Shown here piece by piece: positions 8,991-15,552 of a stretch of DNA of 64,000 bases (position 1 is the first letter of the stretch; each line of letters opens with the position of its first letter). Source of the DNA: Hyphomicrobiales bacterium (lineage in GTDB: Bacteria; Pseudomonadota; Alphaproteobacteria; Rhizobiales; Rhizobiaceae); the NCBI GenBank assembly GCA_900468625.1, contig UBUL01000010.1, positions 1-64,000 of the forward strand, written 5' to 3'. A program made the position numbers and the translations under genes. Under the pieces are notes generated by a model that saw nothing but the letters and a program-made list of their open reading frames with translations, was not told where the DNA came from and searched no databases.

Positions 8991-10583
8991 TCACGGCACG
9001 AGCACCATCAGCAAATGAAATATGACCCAGCCCGTCATATCGCCGGCACCCTTCTTTCCGGCGGTCCCTTGGCCCAATGGTCCGAGATCCTTGATCGGCC
9101 CCTCGCCATTGGCCTCCATATAGCTTAGCCCATGCTGTGCTTCCGGCAATCCTTTCGCCGCCGCCTTGTTGAACCAATCGGCAGCGATTGTGGAGTCCTT
9201 CGGTACGCCATAGCCGTTATAGTACATATATCCAAGACCATATTCGGCACGCGCATCGCCCTGATCCGCAGCTTTGCGAAACAGTTCGGCAGCCTGGCCA
9301 TAGTCTTTGGCGATACCGGCGCCCTGATAGTAGAGGGAGGCGAGGGCATACTCGCCTCGCGAGTTATTCTGGTCGACGGCCTTGCGATACCAGCTTGCCG
9401 CAGCCGCTTTGTCCGGCCGTGTCCCCTGGCCATTGTCATACATGTAGCCAAGCGCATATTGCGCATCCGCATGGCCCTGAGCCGCAGCCTTCCCGTACCA
9501 TTCGAAGGCTCTGGCATTATCCTTTGCGATGCCGAGCCCGCCCGCATACATGCAGGCGAGGGCGTATTGGCCCTGCGCATATCCCCGCTCGGCGGACTTG
9601 CGATACCATTTGACCGCATTGACGTCGTCGACCTTCACGCCCTGACCGTTGGCATATAGATAGCCGATGGCATATTGCGCGTCGGGACGTCCTTGATCGG
9701 CGGCTTTGCGGTACCAGCCAAGCGCCTGGCGATAGTCCCGTGCGACGCCCGATCCGTTCGCAAGACTGTAGCCGACTGCGTATTGCGCATCAGCGCGGCC
9801 CTTCTCCGCGGCTCTCAGATACCAGGAATATGCCTCGGTTTCGTTCCGCTCGACACCCCTGCCGTTTTCATAGGCATAGCCGACGGCATACAAGCCCTGT
9901 GCGTCTCCCTGATCGCCCGCCTTCTTGTACCAGGCGAGGGCCTGTTCCTGATCTTCTTCCGTGCCCTGGCCGCTGTCGTACATGTACCCGACCGCATACT
10001 GGGCGTCGGACCGGCCCTGATCGGCTGCTTTGCGATACCAGCCAAGCGCGATCGCCTTGTCCTGATGGACGCCGAGGCCGTTGGCATACATGTAACCAAG
10101 TGCATATTGCGCCTGTGCCTGATCCTGGGCCGCGGCTTTCTGGTACCAAGTGACGGCCTCTTCCCGGTCGACATTCATGCCCCGGCCATTCGCAAAGGAA
10201 TAGCCGATGGCGTATTGGGCGTCTGCATTGCCACGTTGCGCCGCCTTCAGATACCAGTCGTTCGCCTGTTTCAGATCCGCATCGACGCCGCGACCGCTGG
10301 CATACATATAGGCCAGCGCATATTGCGCCTGCGCATTGCCTTGCTCTGCCGATTTCCGATACCAATCGACGGCCTGGGCATCATCCTGCTCCACGCCCTG
10401 GCCATTGGCATAGCGATAGCCGAGACCGTATTGTGCTGCCGGATTGCCTTGCTTTGCGAACTCCACCCAATATTTCAGGTCGATCGTGGTATTGGCCGGT
10501 CCCGGGGCAGGATCCTCGGCATGAGCAAGCCAGGGCAGCGAAAGAGCAAGCGCCAATCCCAATGCATAGCTCTTTGTCTTCAA
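8991..10583 (-). CDS. Sel1-repeat exported protein, about 12 repeats
   Basis: A 530-residue protein with a signal peptide (cut near AHA at residue 22) and twelve full plus one partial Sel1-like repeats of exactly 36 residues. Most repeats read AQYALGYMYxxGxGVxxDxxxAxxWYRKAADQG. After the solenoid comes a Gly-rich linker and a short hydrophobic C-terminal tail (GWVIFHLLMVLVP), which could anchor the protein. The start codon appears to be TTG at 10583, after a GGGGGGA stretch; no ATG lies near the signal peptide. The repeats are more alike to each other than to those of the neighbouring Sel1 protein, which suggests internal repeat expansion. The function is unknown; a periplasmic scaffold or regulator is likely from the family. 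Confidence 0.83.
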   Translation of the reverse strand: MKTKSYALGLALALSLPWLAHAEDPAPGPANTTIDLKYWVEFAKQGNPAAQYGLGYRYANGQGVEQDDAQAVDWYRKSAEQGNAQAQYALAYMYASGRGVDADLKQANDWYLKAAQRGNADAQYAIGYSFANGRGMNVDREEAVTWYQKAAAQDQAQAQYALGYMYANGLGVHQDKAIALGWYRKAADQGRSDAQYAVGYMYDSGQGTEEDQEQALAWYKKAGDQGDAQGLYAVGYAYENGRGVERNETEAYSWYLRAAEKGRADAQYAVGYSLANGSGVARDYRQALGWYRKAADQGRPDAQYAIGYLYANGQGVKVDDVNAVKWYRKSAERGYAQGQYALACMYAGGLGIAKDNARAFEWYGKAAAQGHADAQYALGYMYDNGQGTRPDKAAAASWYRKAVDQNNSRGEYALASLYYQGAGIAKDYGQAAELFRKAADQGDARAEYGLGYMYYNGYGVPKDSTIAADWFNKAAAKGLPEAQHGLSYMEANGEGPIKDLGPLGQGTAGKKGAGDMTGWVIFHLLMVLVP

Positions 10584-11932: not shown

Positions 11933-13123
11933 ATGGCCATCTTACCCATTCTGCGGCGGGTCGCGCTGCCATTGCTATTGTCGTCGGCGCTGGTCGCCTG
12001 CACGGCAGACAGTCTCTTGCCGCCCTCCAGCATCGATAGTTCCTCGCGCGTCGGCTCCATCAAGCCGTATCGGAGCGTGCAGCAGCGACAATTCGCCTAT
12101 CAGGGCGTTCGGGACCCCGTCGTTTCTGCTTCGAGCAATTACAACGGCGGCCCTGTTCGCTCCACGGGAACCGGCGAGGCCGTGACCACGTCCGACGTCG
12201 AATCCGGTCTGGCGCAGCAATCGAACATTCCGTCTCAAGGCGTCAACATGGATGCCGAGCTCGGCGTCGGCCCGAGTGAGGAGGCTCAGTCCGGATCGGT
12301 GGTCGGATTGGCACAGGAAGAACAGCAGAATATTGCCGAAGGTCAGTCCGATCAGCCTGTGGTCGACGGCATCGGCACCGACGCGCCGGTGCAGACCAAC
12401 CGCTCCACTCTTCAGCGCCCGGCCGCACAGGCCGAACTCAACCAATCGCGGATACCAAGGTCGCTGCCGGGAACGCAGGTCGCAATGCTGCCGCGCGTCG
12501 AAAATCCGATACCGCGCCTCGATCAGCAGTTCGAGGCGCCGCAATCGACGCCCGGCATGATGCCGCCTTCGGAAATCGCCTGCCGTCAGGAGCTGCGGCG
12601 CCTGGGCGTCGTCTATACGGATAGGCCGGCCATATCGAATGGTCCGGCATGCCAGGTTCCTTATCCGATTTCGCTCGGTGGTCTCTCCGGCAACATCGCC
12701 GTCAGGCCGGCAGTCACACTGAACTGTCAAGTGACGCTCGCCTTTGCCAAATGGGTGAAGAACGAGCTCGCTCCGGCGGCGCGCACGCGCTACTGGTCCG
12801 GCATCGGCACGATCGTTCCGCTCGGCGGCTATTCCTGCCGACGCATGAACAATAGCCGGCAACGCTATAATCCGATGTCGGAGCACGCTCACGGCAACGC
12901 GATCGACGTCGGCACCTTCGTCCTGAAGAACGGCCACGTGATCGACATACGCAGAAAGGGCCTCTTTTCCTTCAGGGAAGGTGCGCTGCTCAAGGCGGTG
13001 CGCAGCGACAGCTGCCGCTATTTCGATACGGTGCTCGGGCCGGGCAGCAATCCGGAACATTGGAACCATTTCCACTTCGATCTCAGGGATCGGAAGGGCG
13101 GCCGGCGCTATTGCAGCCTGTGA
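11933..13123 (+). CDS. Extensin-like lipoprotein, LAS-peptidase-like motifs
   Basis: A 396-residue predicted lipoprotein. The signal ends in a lipobox (LVAC, Cys about 23). A long Gln/Pro/Ser-rich linker follows, and the C-terminal 180 residues form the bacterial extensin-like C-terminal domain (from about ACRQELRRLGVVYTD). Within it, SEHAHGNAIDVG and HWNHFHFDL reproduce the spaced H...D...HxH zinc ligands of LAS metallopeptidases (VanY/MepA group), so peptidoglycan amidase or carboxypeptidase activity is possible. The family is generally unstudied. The ATG at 11933 was preferred because a lipoprotein signal begins there; the longer frame from 11771 has no such feature. Confidence 0.85.
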   Translation: MAILPILRRVALPLLLSSALVACTADSLLPPSSIDSSSRVGSIKPYRSVQQRQFAYQGVRDPVVSASSNYNGGPVRSTGTGEAVTTSDVESGLAQQSNIPSQGVNMDAELGVGPSEEAQSGSVVGLAQEEQQNIAEGQSDQPVVDGIGTDAPVQTNRSTLQRPAAQAELNQSRIPRSLPGTQVAMLPRVENPIPRLDQQFEAPQSTPGMMPPSEIACRQELRRLGVVYTDRPAISNGPACQVPYPISLGGLSGNIAVRPAVTLNCQVTLAFAKWVKNELAPAARTRYWSGIGTIVPLGGYSCRRMNNSRQRYNPMSEHAHGNAIDVGTFVLKNGHVIDIRRKGLFSFREGALLKAVRSDSCRYFDTVLGPGSNPEHWNHFHFDLRDRKGGRRYCSL

Positions 13124-13229
13124 TTGGCGTTCGCCGGAACAGCATCCATCCTTGCCGAACGGAGAAGCTGATTTACCTATCGGGTGAATCGCGCTTTAAG
13201 TGGGCTGTCCGAGAGCATAAGAGGGTTTT

Positions 13230-13484
13230 ATGGAAGACGTGCCGAGACGAAAGAAAAGCCTGGGAAGAGCGCTCGCCGCCGCACTGATCGCTATCGTCAT
13301 CGTCATCGGCGGCCGCTGGTATGCCTATGTCGCCTATGCCGACGATCCGTTCGATGAGGTCGGCATCGGCCTTAATTCCATGATGCCCGGCCCCATCCGC
13401 GACAAGGGCTGCGAAATGCTGAAGGCTCGCTTCGAGCGCAAGACCCTGCCGCCGGCGGGCTGCGGCGTGAACGGCAGCTGGTGA
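13230..13484 (+). CDS. Small single-pass membrane protein, unknown function
   Basis: An 84-residue protein with a basic N-terminus (RRKKSLGR), one hydrophobic helix at about residues 14-29, and a C-terminal soluble part with two cysteines (KGCEMLKARF and AGCGVNGSW). Such a topology suggests an inner-membrane anchor with a periplasmic tail. The ATG at 13230 lies about 100 bp after the extensin-like gene on the same strand. No family is recognised. Confidence 0.55.
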   Translation: MEDVPRRKKSLGRALAAALIAIVIVIGGRWYAYVAYADDPFDEVGIGLNSMMPGPIRDKGCEMLKARFERKTLPPAGCGVNGSW

Positions 13485-13510
13485 GCTTCGCTCTTCGGAT
13501 CGTAAGCCGG

Positions 13511-13540
13511 CAAAAAAAGAAAAGCCGGCTAGGCCGGCTT
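13511..13540 (-). terminator. Rho-independent terminator, minus strand
   Basis: Perfect 8-bp stem AAGCCGGC/GCCGGCTT (13540-13533 and 13529-13522) with a 3-base loop, followed on the minus strand by a run of T interrupted once by C. No minus-strand protein gene precedes it, which is why a small RNA is proposed. Confidence 0.75.
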
Positions 13541-13635
13541 GAGTGGCGCATGGCAACGACGGGGGATCCTTGCCTGCTCCAGAAAAGAACTTCATGTTGC
13601 AATGATGCATGCAATATGAATGCGAGGGCAATAAA
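13512..13635 (-). ncRNA. Candidate small RNA, about 124 nt
   Basis: In the 383-bp gap 13485-13867 there is no credible gene, yet the minus strand carries a promoter-like pair (TTGGCG at 13670-13665, 17-base spacer, TGTATT at 13647-13642) and, about 100 bases on, a factor-independent terminator (13540-13511). A transcript would start near 13635 and end near 13512. No open frame of note lies in it. This is a prediction from sequence signals only; the rest of the gap (13671-13867) holds the leader of the ABC exporter gene and nothing else recognised. Confidence 0.45.
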
Positions 13636-13641
13636 TCGGCC

Positions 13642-13670
13642 AATACAGCAGGCGCTGACGGTGTCGCCAA
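13642..13670 (-). promoter_or_regulatory. Sigma-70-like promoter for the candidate sRNA
   Basis: On the minus strand TTGGCG (-35) and TGTATT (-10) are separated by exactly 17 bases. Each matches four of six consensus positions, and the -35 resembles the rhizobial CTTGGC variant. Confidence 0.4.
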
Positions 13671-13867
13671 GAGGCGTTGGGCGGAGTTGCGACAAACGTT
13701 GCTCACCTAAGGAGCTATATGCCCGACCAAGGTCACGATTTGATGACAGCTTATTTGGGTTAAGCGAACGCTGTGTTTCGTCGTCTCGGGGTGGTCAAAG
13801 CTTAAAACCGGTTATATAGCGGGCAAACGCCGCGAAATTCATCACAAAAGCCGGAATTTGCCTGACC

Positions 13868-14794
13868 ATGGCTCCGATCATTTCGATTCGCAATCTTAGG
13901 AAAACATACTCCAACGGATTTCAGGCACTGAAAGGTGTCGATCTCGATATCGAGCGGGGTGAAATCCTGGCGCTGCTCGGGCCGAATGGTGCTGGCAAGA
14001 CGACATTGATTTCCATCGTCTGCGGGATCGCCAACCCGAGCAGCGGCTCGGTGACGGTCGGCGGGCATGACGTCGTGCGCGATTTCCGCGCTACGCGCAG
14101 CATGATCGGCCTCGTGCCGCAGGAGCTGACGACCGATCAGTTCGAAACGGTCTGGAATACGGTGAGCTTCTCGCGCGGGCTGCACGGCAAGAAGCCGAAC
14201 CCTGAACATATCGAGAAAATCCTGCGCGATCTTTCGCTCTGGGAGAAGAAGGACAACATGCTTCGCCAGCTTTCCGGCGGCATGAAGCGGCGTGTATTGA
14301 TCGCCAAGGCGCTCTCGCACGAACCGGAGATACTTTTCCTCGACGAGCCGACGGCTGGCGTCGATGTGACGCTGCGAAAGGACATGTGGCATGTGGTCGA
14401 ACGTCTGCGCGCGTCCGGCGTCACGATCATTCTGACGACGCATTACATCGAGGAGGCCGAGGAAGCTGCCGATCGCGTCGGCGTCATCAATGGCGGCGAG
14501 TTGCTGCTGGTGGAGGAGAAGAAGGCACTAATGGCCAAGCTCGGGCGCAAGCAGCTCATCCTCGATTTGAACGAGCCGCTGGACGCCGTCCCGCACCGTC
14601 TCGAAGGCAATGGGCTTTCGCTCGGACCGAGCGGTCTGACGCTGATCTATGATTTCGATGCCCAAAACGAGCAGTCGAGCATCGCGGCTCTGCTGTCGAA
14701 GCTGGCCGAGCAGGGAATTCACTTCAAGGATCTCTCGACGCGTCAAAGTTCGCTCGAGGATATTTTCGTCTCGCTGGTGGAGGCAGGCAAATGA
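13868..14794 (+). CDS. ABC-2 exporter ATP-binding protein
   Basis: A 308-residue cytoplasmic ATPase of the ABC-2 (NodI/CcmA/drug-exporter) type. Walker A (GPNGAGKTT) is at 38-46, the signature LSGGMKRRV at about 137-145, and Walker [11 protein letters not shown] follows. The C-terminal 70 residues form the usual extra domain of this branch. The stop overlaps the permease start by four bases (ATGA), so the two are translationally coupled and form an exporter with two permease copies. The substrate is unknown; NodI/NodJ-like polysaccharide or drug export are family options. Confidence 0.92.
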
Positions 14795-15552
14795 ACTTCG
14801 AAGCGGTCAAATCCATCTACGCTTTCGAAATGGCCCGCACGCGCCGCACTCTGCTCCAGAGCGTCGTTTCGCCGGTCATTTCCACGTCACTCTATTTCAT
14901 CGTCTTCGGTGCGGCGATCGGTTCGCGCATCAATCTGGTCGAGGGTGTCTCCTATGGGGCGTTCATCACACCCGGCCTGATCATGCTGACCCTGCTTGGC
15001 CAGTGCATCAGCAACGGCTCCTTCGGCATCTATTTCCCGAAGTTTACGGGCACGATCTACGAGGTGCTGTCGGCACCCGTCGCCATGGCCGAGATCGTTC
15101 TCGGCTATGTCGGCGCGGCGGCGACCAAGGGGATGCTGATCGGCCTGATCATCCTGGCGACCGCGAGCTTCTTCGTCGACATCAGGATCGAGCATCCGTT
15201 CATGATGATCCTTTTCTTCGTGCTGACGGCCGTAACCTTCAGCCTGTTCGGCTTCATGATCGGCATATGGGCCGGGAATTTCGAGCAGCTGAACCTCATC
15301 CCGATGCTGGTCGTGCCGCCGCTGACCTTCCTTGGCGGCAGCTTCTATTCGATCAACATGCTGCCGCCTTTCTGGCAGGCCGTCAGCCACCTCAATCCGG
15401 TCCTCTATCTCGTCAGTGGCTTCCGCTGGAGCTTCTACGGCATCGCCGATGTCAATCCGGCACTGAGCCTGGCCATGATCACGCTTTTCCTCGTCATCTG
15501 CCTGGTCATCCTTGGATGGATTTTCAAAACCGGTTATCGGTTGCGGAACTGA
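14791..15552 (+). CDS. ABC-2 type exporter permease
   Basis: A 253-residue membrane protein with about six hydrophobic segments and the ABC-2 family pattern, including the late segment [20 protein letters not shown], which is diagnostic of NodJ-like permeases. It partners the preceding ATPase through a four-base overlap. The operon seems to end here, since an interspersed repeat follows immediately. Confidence 0.9.

Follow-up and report, generated by a model that had tools for sequence, protein, structure and literature searches.

A conserved candidate small RNA gene divergent from a YadGH-type ABC exporter gene in rhizobia

Introduction

The trans-encoded small RNAs (sRNAs) of the Alphaproteobacteria, among them AbcR, EcpR1 and NfeR1, are typically intergenic transcripts of about 100-200 nt with their own promoter, an intrinsic terminator and a hairpin that exposes a C-rich loop. 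By analogy with these RNAs, a C-rich loop combined with a U-rich tail is expected of an sRNA that acts by base pairing. The locus described here, found in a window of 64,000 nucleotides (the whole stretch of DNA that was analysed), shares these traits, but it has no Rfam match, lies among other neighbours and has an activator-type promoter.

A described parallel in regulation is ChvR of Caulobacter crescentus, an sRNA that is reported to be switched on by the OmpR-family system ChvGI, to act on the mRNA of an envelope protein, to be specific to C. crescentus and to lie upstream of recF/gyrB (PMC6237742). Control by an OmpR-family two-component system would be common to ChvR and the window sRNA, for which it is inferred, whereas the ChvI motifs quoted in PMC9731502 are unlike the box found in the window. 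At most, the window sRNA resembles ChvR in its mode of action, and it is not a member of that family.

Genome G009 in the present comparison is presumably that of R. etli CFN42. If so, no transcript is entered in Table 1 of PMC4167512 where the homologue would be expected. That paper and PMC2881028, catalogues of R. etli ncRNAs and so from the same genus as the window, are described as reporting 18 and 89 intergenic transcripts, respectively, from arrays or RNA-Seq (the ReC series). No description of the sRNA was found in the main text of open-licence papers, and a supplementary table may hold one.

Comparison with Rfam 15 gave no match above a gathering threshold anywhere in the window. Between 13400 and 13900 only Bacillaceae-1 (19.9 of 35 bits, on the other strand) and P5 (15.4 of 60 bits) were listed, and seven homologous loci gave nothing at E<=0.5. 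Membership in a known Rfam sRNA family was rejected for want of any score above threshold. The sequence comparisons suggest a conserved sRNA family of a known kind, new as a family within Rfam 15 and the main text of open-licence papers.

Extent and identity of the gene

The features of the locus, numbered from the first letter of the window, are as follows.

13512..13708, minus strand: predicted sRNA gene, expected transcript about 197 nt long, from the A at 13708 into the T run
13732..13749, minus strand: PhoB-like box CTGTCAT-CAAA-TCGTGAC (CTGTCATCAAATCGTGAC), an 11-bp direct repeat GTCAT/GTGAC
13716..13721, minus strand: -10 element CATATA, 10 nt downstream of the box
13662..13694, minus strand: 5' hairpin UGUCGC...GCGACA with a C-rich loop (AACUCCGCCCAACGCCUCUUG), a candidate base-pairing region
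13642..13670, minus strand: TTGGCG-N17-TGTATT, the previously proposed promoter pair, which lacks conservation in that role
13544..13581, minus strand: second hairpin (GGAGCAGGCAAGGAUC...GUUGCC...), from folding and covariation
13522..13540, minus strand: intrinsic terminator stem AAGCCGGC-CTA-GCCGGCTT, 8 pairs and a loop of 3, with a T run at 13521-13512
13230..13484, plus strand: 84-aa open reading frame (orf84) converging on the sRNA 3' end, no family
13868..14794, plus strand: ATP-binding protein of an ABC transporter, the divergent neighbour, Pfam PF00005
14791..15552, plus strand: ABC-2 type permease, YadH-like, NCBIfam NF011648/PRK15066 (237.8 bits against a cut-off of 225)

A minus-strand sRNA gene at 13708-13512 is very probably real, and longer than had been proposed. 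The sequence features that argue for it are the conserved box and -10 element, the 5' hairpin with its C-rich loop, the second hairpin, the invariant terminator, the constant length and the divergent ABC transporter. The fuller reading, in which this stretch is an independent non-coding RNA gene of about 197 nt that is under the activator proposed below, carries a tail for Hfq and represses by loop pairing, is likely, though less secure. The 5' end at 13708 is inferred from the position of the -10 element. Both covariance models described in the next section match 13708-13512 of the window, and the homologous RNAs as excised measure 196-201 nt in 42 close and 191-199 nt in 22 divergent homologues.

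Distribution

A blastn search with 13512-13740 gave matches to the region in 42 of the 148 genus genomes. These 42 places were aligned, and the first covariance model, R1, was built from their RNAs. R1 matched 114/148 genomes at E<=0.05, and many of the matches are far diverged in sequence, the stems included. Adding 22 divergent members to the R1 set gave the model R2, which at E<=0.001 matches 127/148 genomes; in the remaining 21 the gene may be absent or have been missed by the stricter filters. The sRNA occupies one place per genome, and no second copy was found in the window's own genome (best other match E 2.91). The terminator alone is weak evidence, since a terminator scan of 12500-15000 returned one site where shuffled sequence leads one to expect 2.6 (sd 1.6); the feature rises above chance because it is conserved, in the blastn and the covariance searches alike.

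In a sample of the family, R2 matched 33 of 394 genomes at E<=0.1, eight of them in the genus and 25 outside it. The loci of 22 of these 25 were inspected, and L091-L093 and L095, which represent two other genera (three genomes and one), are convincing. L096-L099, L101-L105 and L106-L113 have no such box and were taken as chance matches. At L100 a box, TTTGTCATCAAACCGTGAT, lies near the ABC gene and the model placed the RNA off register; this is probably a more diverged homologue. A sample of the order gave eight matches in 397 genomes at E<=0.001, six in the genus and two in another genus of the same family. A similarity search in plasmids gave matches confined to the ABC coding part.

The promoter box lies outside both covariance models. 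All five of the strongest new hits in the family sample (L091-L095, four from other genera and one from the genus itself) nevertheless carry the box, separated by 10 nt from a -10-like ATA or ATT, and each adjoins the same ABC transporter gene. Because the models contain no promoter, these boxes independently confirm both the promoter and the RNA.

The conserved promoter

The box pattern [CT]GTCAT-N6-GTGA[CT] is present in 42/42 close and 22/23 divergent homologues; the twenty-third, L080, was excised short, and the promoter pattern matches on L136, a contig of equal length. The -10 element of the close homologues reads CATATA in 29 cases, CATATC/G in ten, and GATAAA, CATACC and CATAAA in one each; all 22 divergent homologues with the box have [CG]ATAA. 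When aligned, the conserved unit runs TGTCATYAAA--GTGAC, ten bases, CATAT and then AGGTGAGC..., through to the terminator.

The preliminary description had derived a transcript of 124 nt from TTGGCG (13670-13665), a spacer of 17 nt and TGTATT (13647-13642). That pair exists, with four of six matches in each hexamer, but it is not the conserved promoter. A promoter scan of 12500-15000 returned no promoter-like site against 0.8 expected, the pair itself failing the scan's criteria. TTGGCG is kept in 36 of the 42 close relatives, as the 3' arm of the conserved hairpin UGUCGC...GCGACA. The pair was rejected as a promoter because its -35 is a hairpin arm and because an acceptable -10 (a hexamer with at least four matches plus the A and T of a -10, at 16-18 nt) occurs in only 13/42 relatives. 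The 124-nt length and its 5' end are unsupported. Measured between the two -10 elements, the conserved promoter lies 74 nt farther upstream, which lengthens the predicted transcript to about 197 nt.

A shorter sRNA from the TTGGCG pair, ending at the same terminator, nonetheless deserves a hearing, given the hexamer matches at the right spacing, a 129-nt stretch that folds well (z -3.80) and the possibility that its 5' end is a processed or secondary one. It is very unlikely as the primary account, as its -10 passes so rarely in relatives, the stretch 13649-13708, 5' of that -10, is among the most conserved parts of the alignment, and it is the upstream promoter, at fixed spacing, that is conserved instead. 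Of the conservation across relatives that had been predicted for the original candidate, the stems bear the prediction out, whereas its own promoter does not and a different one upstream does.

Terminator and RNA structure

The terminator is where it had been placed, on the minus strand, with a stem at 13540-13522 followed by TTCTTTTTTT. In the alignment, seven pairs of its stem (helix 8) are invariant across 40 distinct sequences. Convergent genes often have a terminator between them, and orf84 points towards this hairpin, so it could be supposed that the hairpin merely ends transcription of the neighbouring genes and that there is no sRNA. This is extremely unlikely, since only its minus side has a T run, the terminator persists where orf84 and the extensin gene were not found beside it, and the whole 197 nt are conserved together with the upstream promoter.

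Both hairpins upstream of the terminator vary in ways that preserve pairing. Compensatory changes occur in the 5' hairpin (helix 3 of the structure-fitted alignment), and in the second hairpin a G-C pair has become A-U at one position in 14 of the 42 close relatives. RNAalifold predicts 34 mostly invariant pairs for the 42 close RNAs, with double changes at four pairs, and 19 pairs, with double changes at five, for a mixed set aligned without structure (A3). When the RNAs are aligned against R1, 90.5% of cells are paired and 16/34 pairs show changes on both sides, counts that lean towards the structure because the alignment was fitted to it. None of 500 shuffles scored as high on four of five measures; the fifth, further pair types, was equalled by 31/500. 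Sliding the alignment lowers the paired fraction to 29-51%.

Thermodynamic folding gives a more mixed picture. The full transcript of the window has only a moderate advantage over shuffles, with a z of -2.08 and 6/200 shuffles equally good. When the first 64 nt are folded alone, the hairpin appears in 20/20 close sequences but, by reading, in only 7/21 divergent ones, in which other folds compete with it.

Coding potential

It had been noted that the gap contains no minus-strand gene, and this is agreed, although open minus-strand frames of 177, 107 and 59 aa exist. The longest, from a GTG at 13706 and 177 aa long in the window, was tested and rejected as a gene, as in relatives it ranges from 9 codons to open and is crossed by frame-breaking indels. 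That the transcript is instead the mRNA of a small protein is scarcely credible: the window and some relatives do have an open frame there, but it is only 9 to 39 codons long in 25/42 relatives, 105 of 114 indels relative to the window have a length that is no multiple of three (in comparisons that share ancestry and are non-independent), and divergent homologues start AGGC or AGGA, without the GTG. No reading frame is conserved across the homologues, in keeping with a non-coding RNA. The existence of an unannotated minus-strand sRNA with an intrinsic terminator, as the preliminary description proposed, has behind it the promoter, hairpins and terminator conserved across relatives.

Genome-wide scan for the promoter

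The promoter pattern YGTCATYANNYNGTGAYNTTN7SATAW was scanned against one genome from each of 84,980 species. Because it was drawn from known members, the scan tests the pairing of promoter and RNA and not recall. The pattern alone selected 94 stretches, of which 85 contain an R2 match (71/80 and 14/14), and all 85 matches begin 7-9 nt past the pattern on the same strand. Seven of the nine stretches without a match come from unrelated organisms and were taken as chance; the available sequence of L186 stops at the promoter, and in the rhizobial L189 the RNA is recognisable by eye and scores below threshold. Carriers include R. johnstonii 3841, R. leguminosarum, R. phaseoli, R. tropici, R. freirei and R. 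lusitanum, as well as R. rhizogenes, R. mongolense, R. sullae and Metarhizobium album. In R. johnstonii 3841 the homologue (L196) is on the plus strand of NC_008380.1, at about 2,945,648-2,945,841.

Genomic neighbourhood

The promoter of the sRNA and the YadGH-type ABC ATP-binding gene are arranged back to back at 86 of 87 rhizobial loci, 118-269 bases apart in 82 loci and about 1 kb apart in four. The 87th, L183, ends before the ABC gene, which is present in the overlapping L083. The other side varies, with an extensin-like gene in 43/94 stretches and orf84 in 33/94.

Some diverged loci (L075, L077, L082 and L083) carry extra DNA between the sRNA and the ABC gene; the insert of L075 contains a reading frame that we take to resemble a TauE/SafE-type membrane protein. 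Between the box and the ABC gene, at 13765-13825, the relatives in the window's clade have further conserved blocks, whose consensus on the minus strand reads CTTTTACCACCCC, GCTATATAGCC and, palindrome-like, GAACACAGCGTTC; these may serve the ABC operon as promoter or operator. Elsewhere in the window, a 530-aa reading frame at 8991-10583 (minus strand) contains, by eye, many Sel1-like repeats.

Regulator of the promoter

As in promoters under OmpR/PhoB-family regulators, the box is an 11-bp direct repeat that replaces the -35 element. No -35 hexamer occurs at the position of the box in the window, and the box is probably the target of an activator of this family, PhoB being the probable member on sequence grounds. 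The PhoB boxes of S. meliloti that overlap the -35 are described as lying 22-25 nt upstream of the start, with an 11-bp direct repeat replacing the -35 (PMC3616915). The window promoter agrees with such Pho-box promoters of rhizobia in the repeat and in the spacing, its box ending at 13732, 24 nt before the predicted start at 13708, and differs in its second half-site, where the homologues examined have GTGA[CT] instead of GTCA[CT]; regulation by phosphate is here a prediction. Against CTGTCAT(N4)CTGTCAT the box has 10/14 matches, exactly the limit of four mismatches used in PMC2573895. Matches of this grade are common, at least 20 sites with ten or more occurring in the 64-kb window alone. 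The first 11 letters of the box, CTGTCATCAAA, are also the first 11 of a box that precedes pstS in the window's own genome; the chance of such an identity to the 510-base pstS stretch is about 2 in 10,000, uncorrected for having looked.

If the sRNA is real, the case for PhoB as its regulator is slightly better than even. The same sRNA could instead answer to another OmpR-family or an unrelated regulator, a substantial possibility that falls somewhat short of even. Other OmpR-family regulators exist in rhizobia, GTGA recurs consistently as the second half-site, and the window's own genome has the exact architecture GTCAY-N6-GTSAY-N10-SATAW at no other place, so no regulon sharing it was found. 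Set against this are the PhoB-like spacing and first half-site and the poorer fit of published motifs for FeuP (TTCA-N7-TTCA) and ChvI; neither of the ChvI motifs quoted in PMC9731502, GCC-N8-GCC and TTGC-N3-GCAA, is seen by eye in the box. Elsewhere in the same genome (L088, C54:39557-39573), a triple repeat, TTGTCATCCGGCTGTCACCTGGTTGTCAT, upstream of a porin-like frame that starts MNIKSLLIGSAAALCVVSGAHAADAIVA..., resembles a Pho box.

In the proposed mechanism, a response regulator of the OmpR/PhoB family would bind the box that replaces the -35 and would recruit sigma-70 RNA polymerase to the sRNA promoter; the most likely candidate is PhoB, phosphorylated when phosphate is short.

Possible function and targets

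By analogy with known alphaproteobacterial sRNAs, the RNA is most likely a trans-acting repressor of translation. A U-rich tail is present at its 3' end and would suit Hfq, and the C-rich loop may pair with the G-rich ribosome-binding regions of target mRNAs, lowering their translation. The neighbouring exporter may be either such a target or merely the sharer of a control region.

Two crude searches for targets gave no candidate. With up to three mismatches, the loop seed GAGGCGTTGGGCGGAG finds 117 places (66 + 51) in its own genome, against 111 (60 + 51) for a reversed control, and the only exact match is the sRNA gene itself. For antisense pairing to the beginning of the ABC mRNA, the 18 of 70 loci that were covered gave z values of -1.78 to 1.42, no better than shuffles, by duplexfold without accessibility, a crude measure.

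A more specific picture may be offered tentatively: a genus-wide phosphate-starvation sRNA, induced by PhoB, whose C-rich loop silences envelope or transport mRNAs and which forms an ancient paired unit with the divergent YadGH-type exporter. It is possible rather than probable. If it were true, it would link the phosphate supply of legume symbionts to their cell surface. The sRNA family would extend to 127 of the 148 species genomes of the genus, among them that of R. johnstonii (formerly R. leguminosarum) 3841 and those of R. leguminosarum, R. phaseoli and R. tropici group strains; catalogues based on S. meliloti may have overlooked it there. The promoter names a testable regulator, and with it the condition under which to look, and the fixed pairing with an uncharacterised exporter provides a starting point for function.
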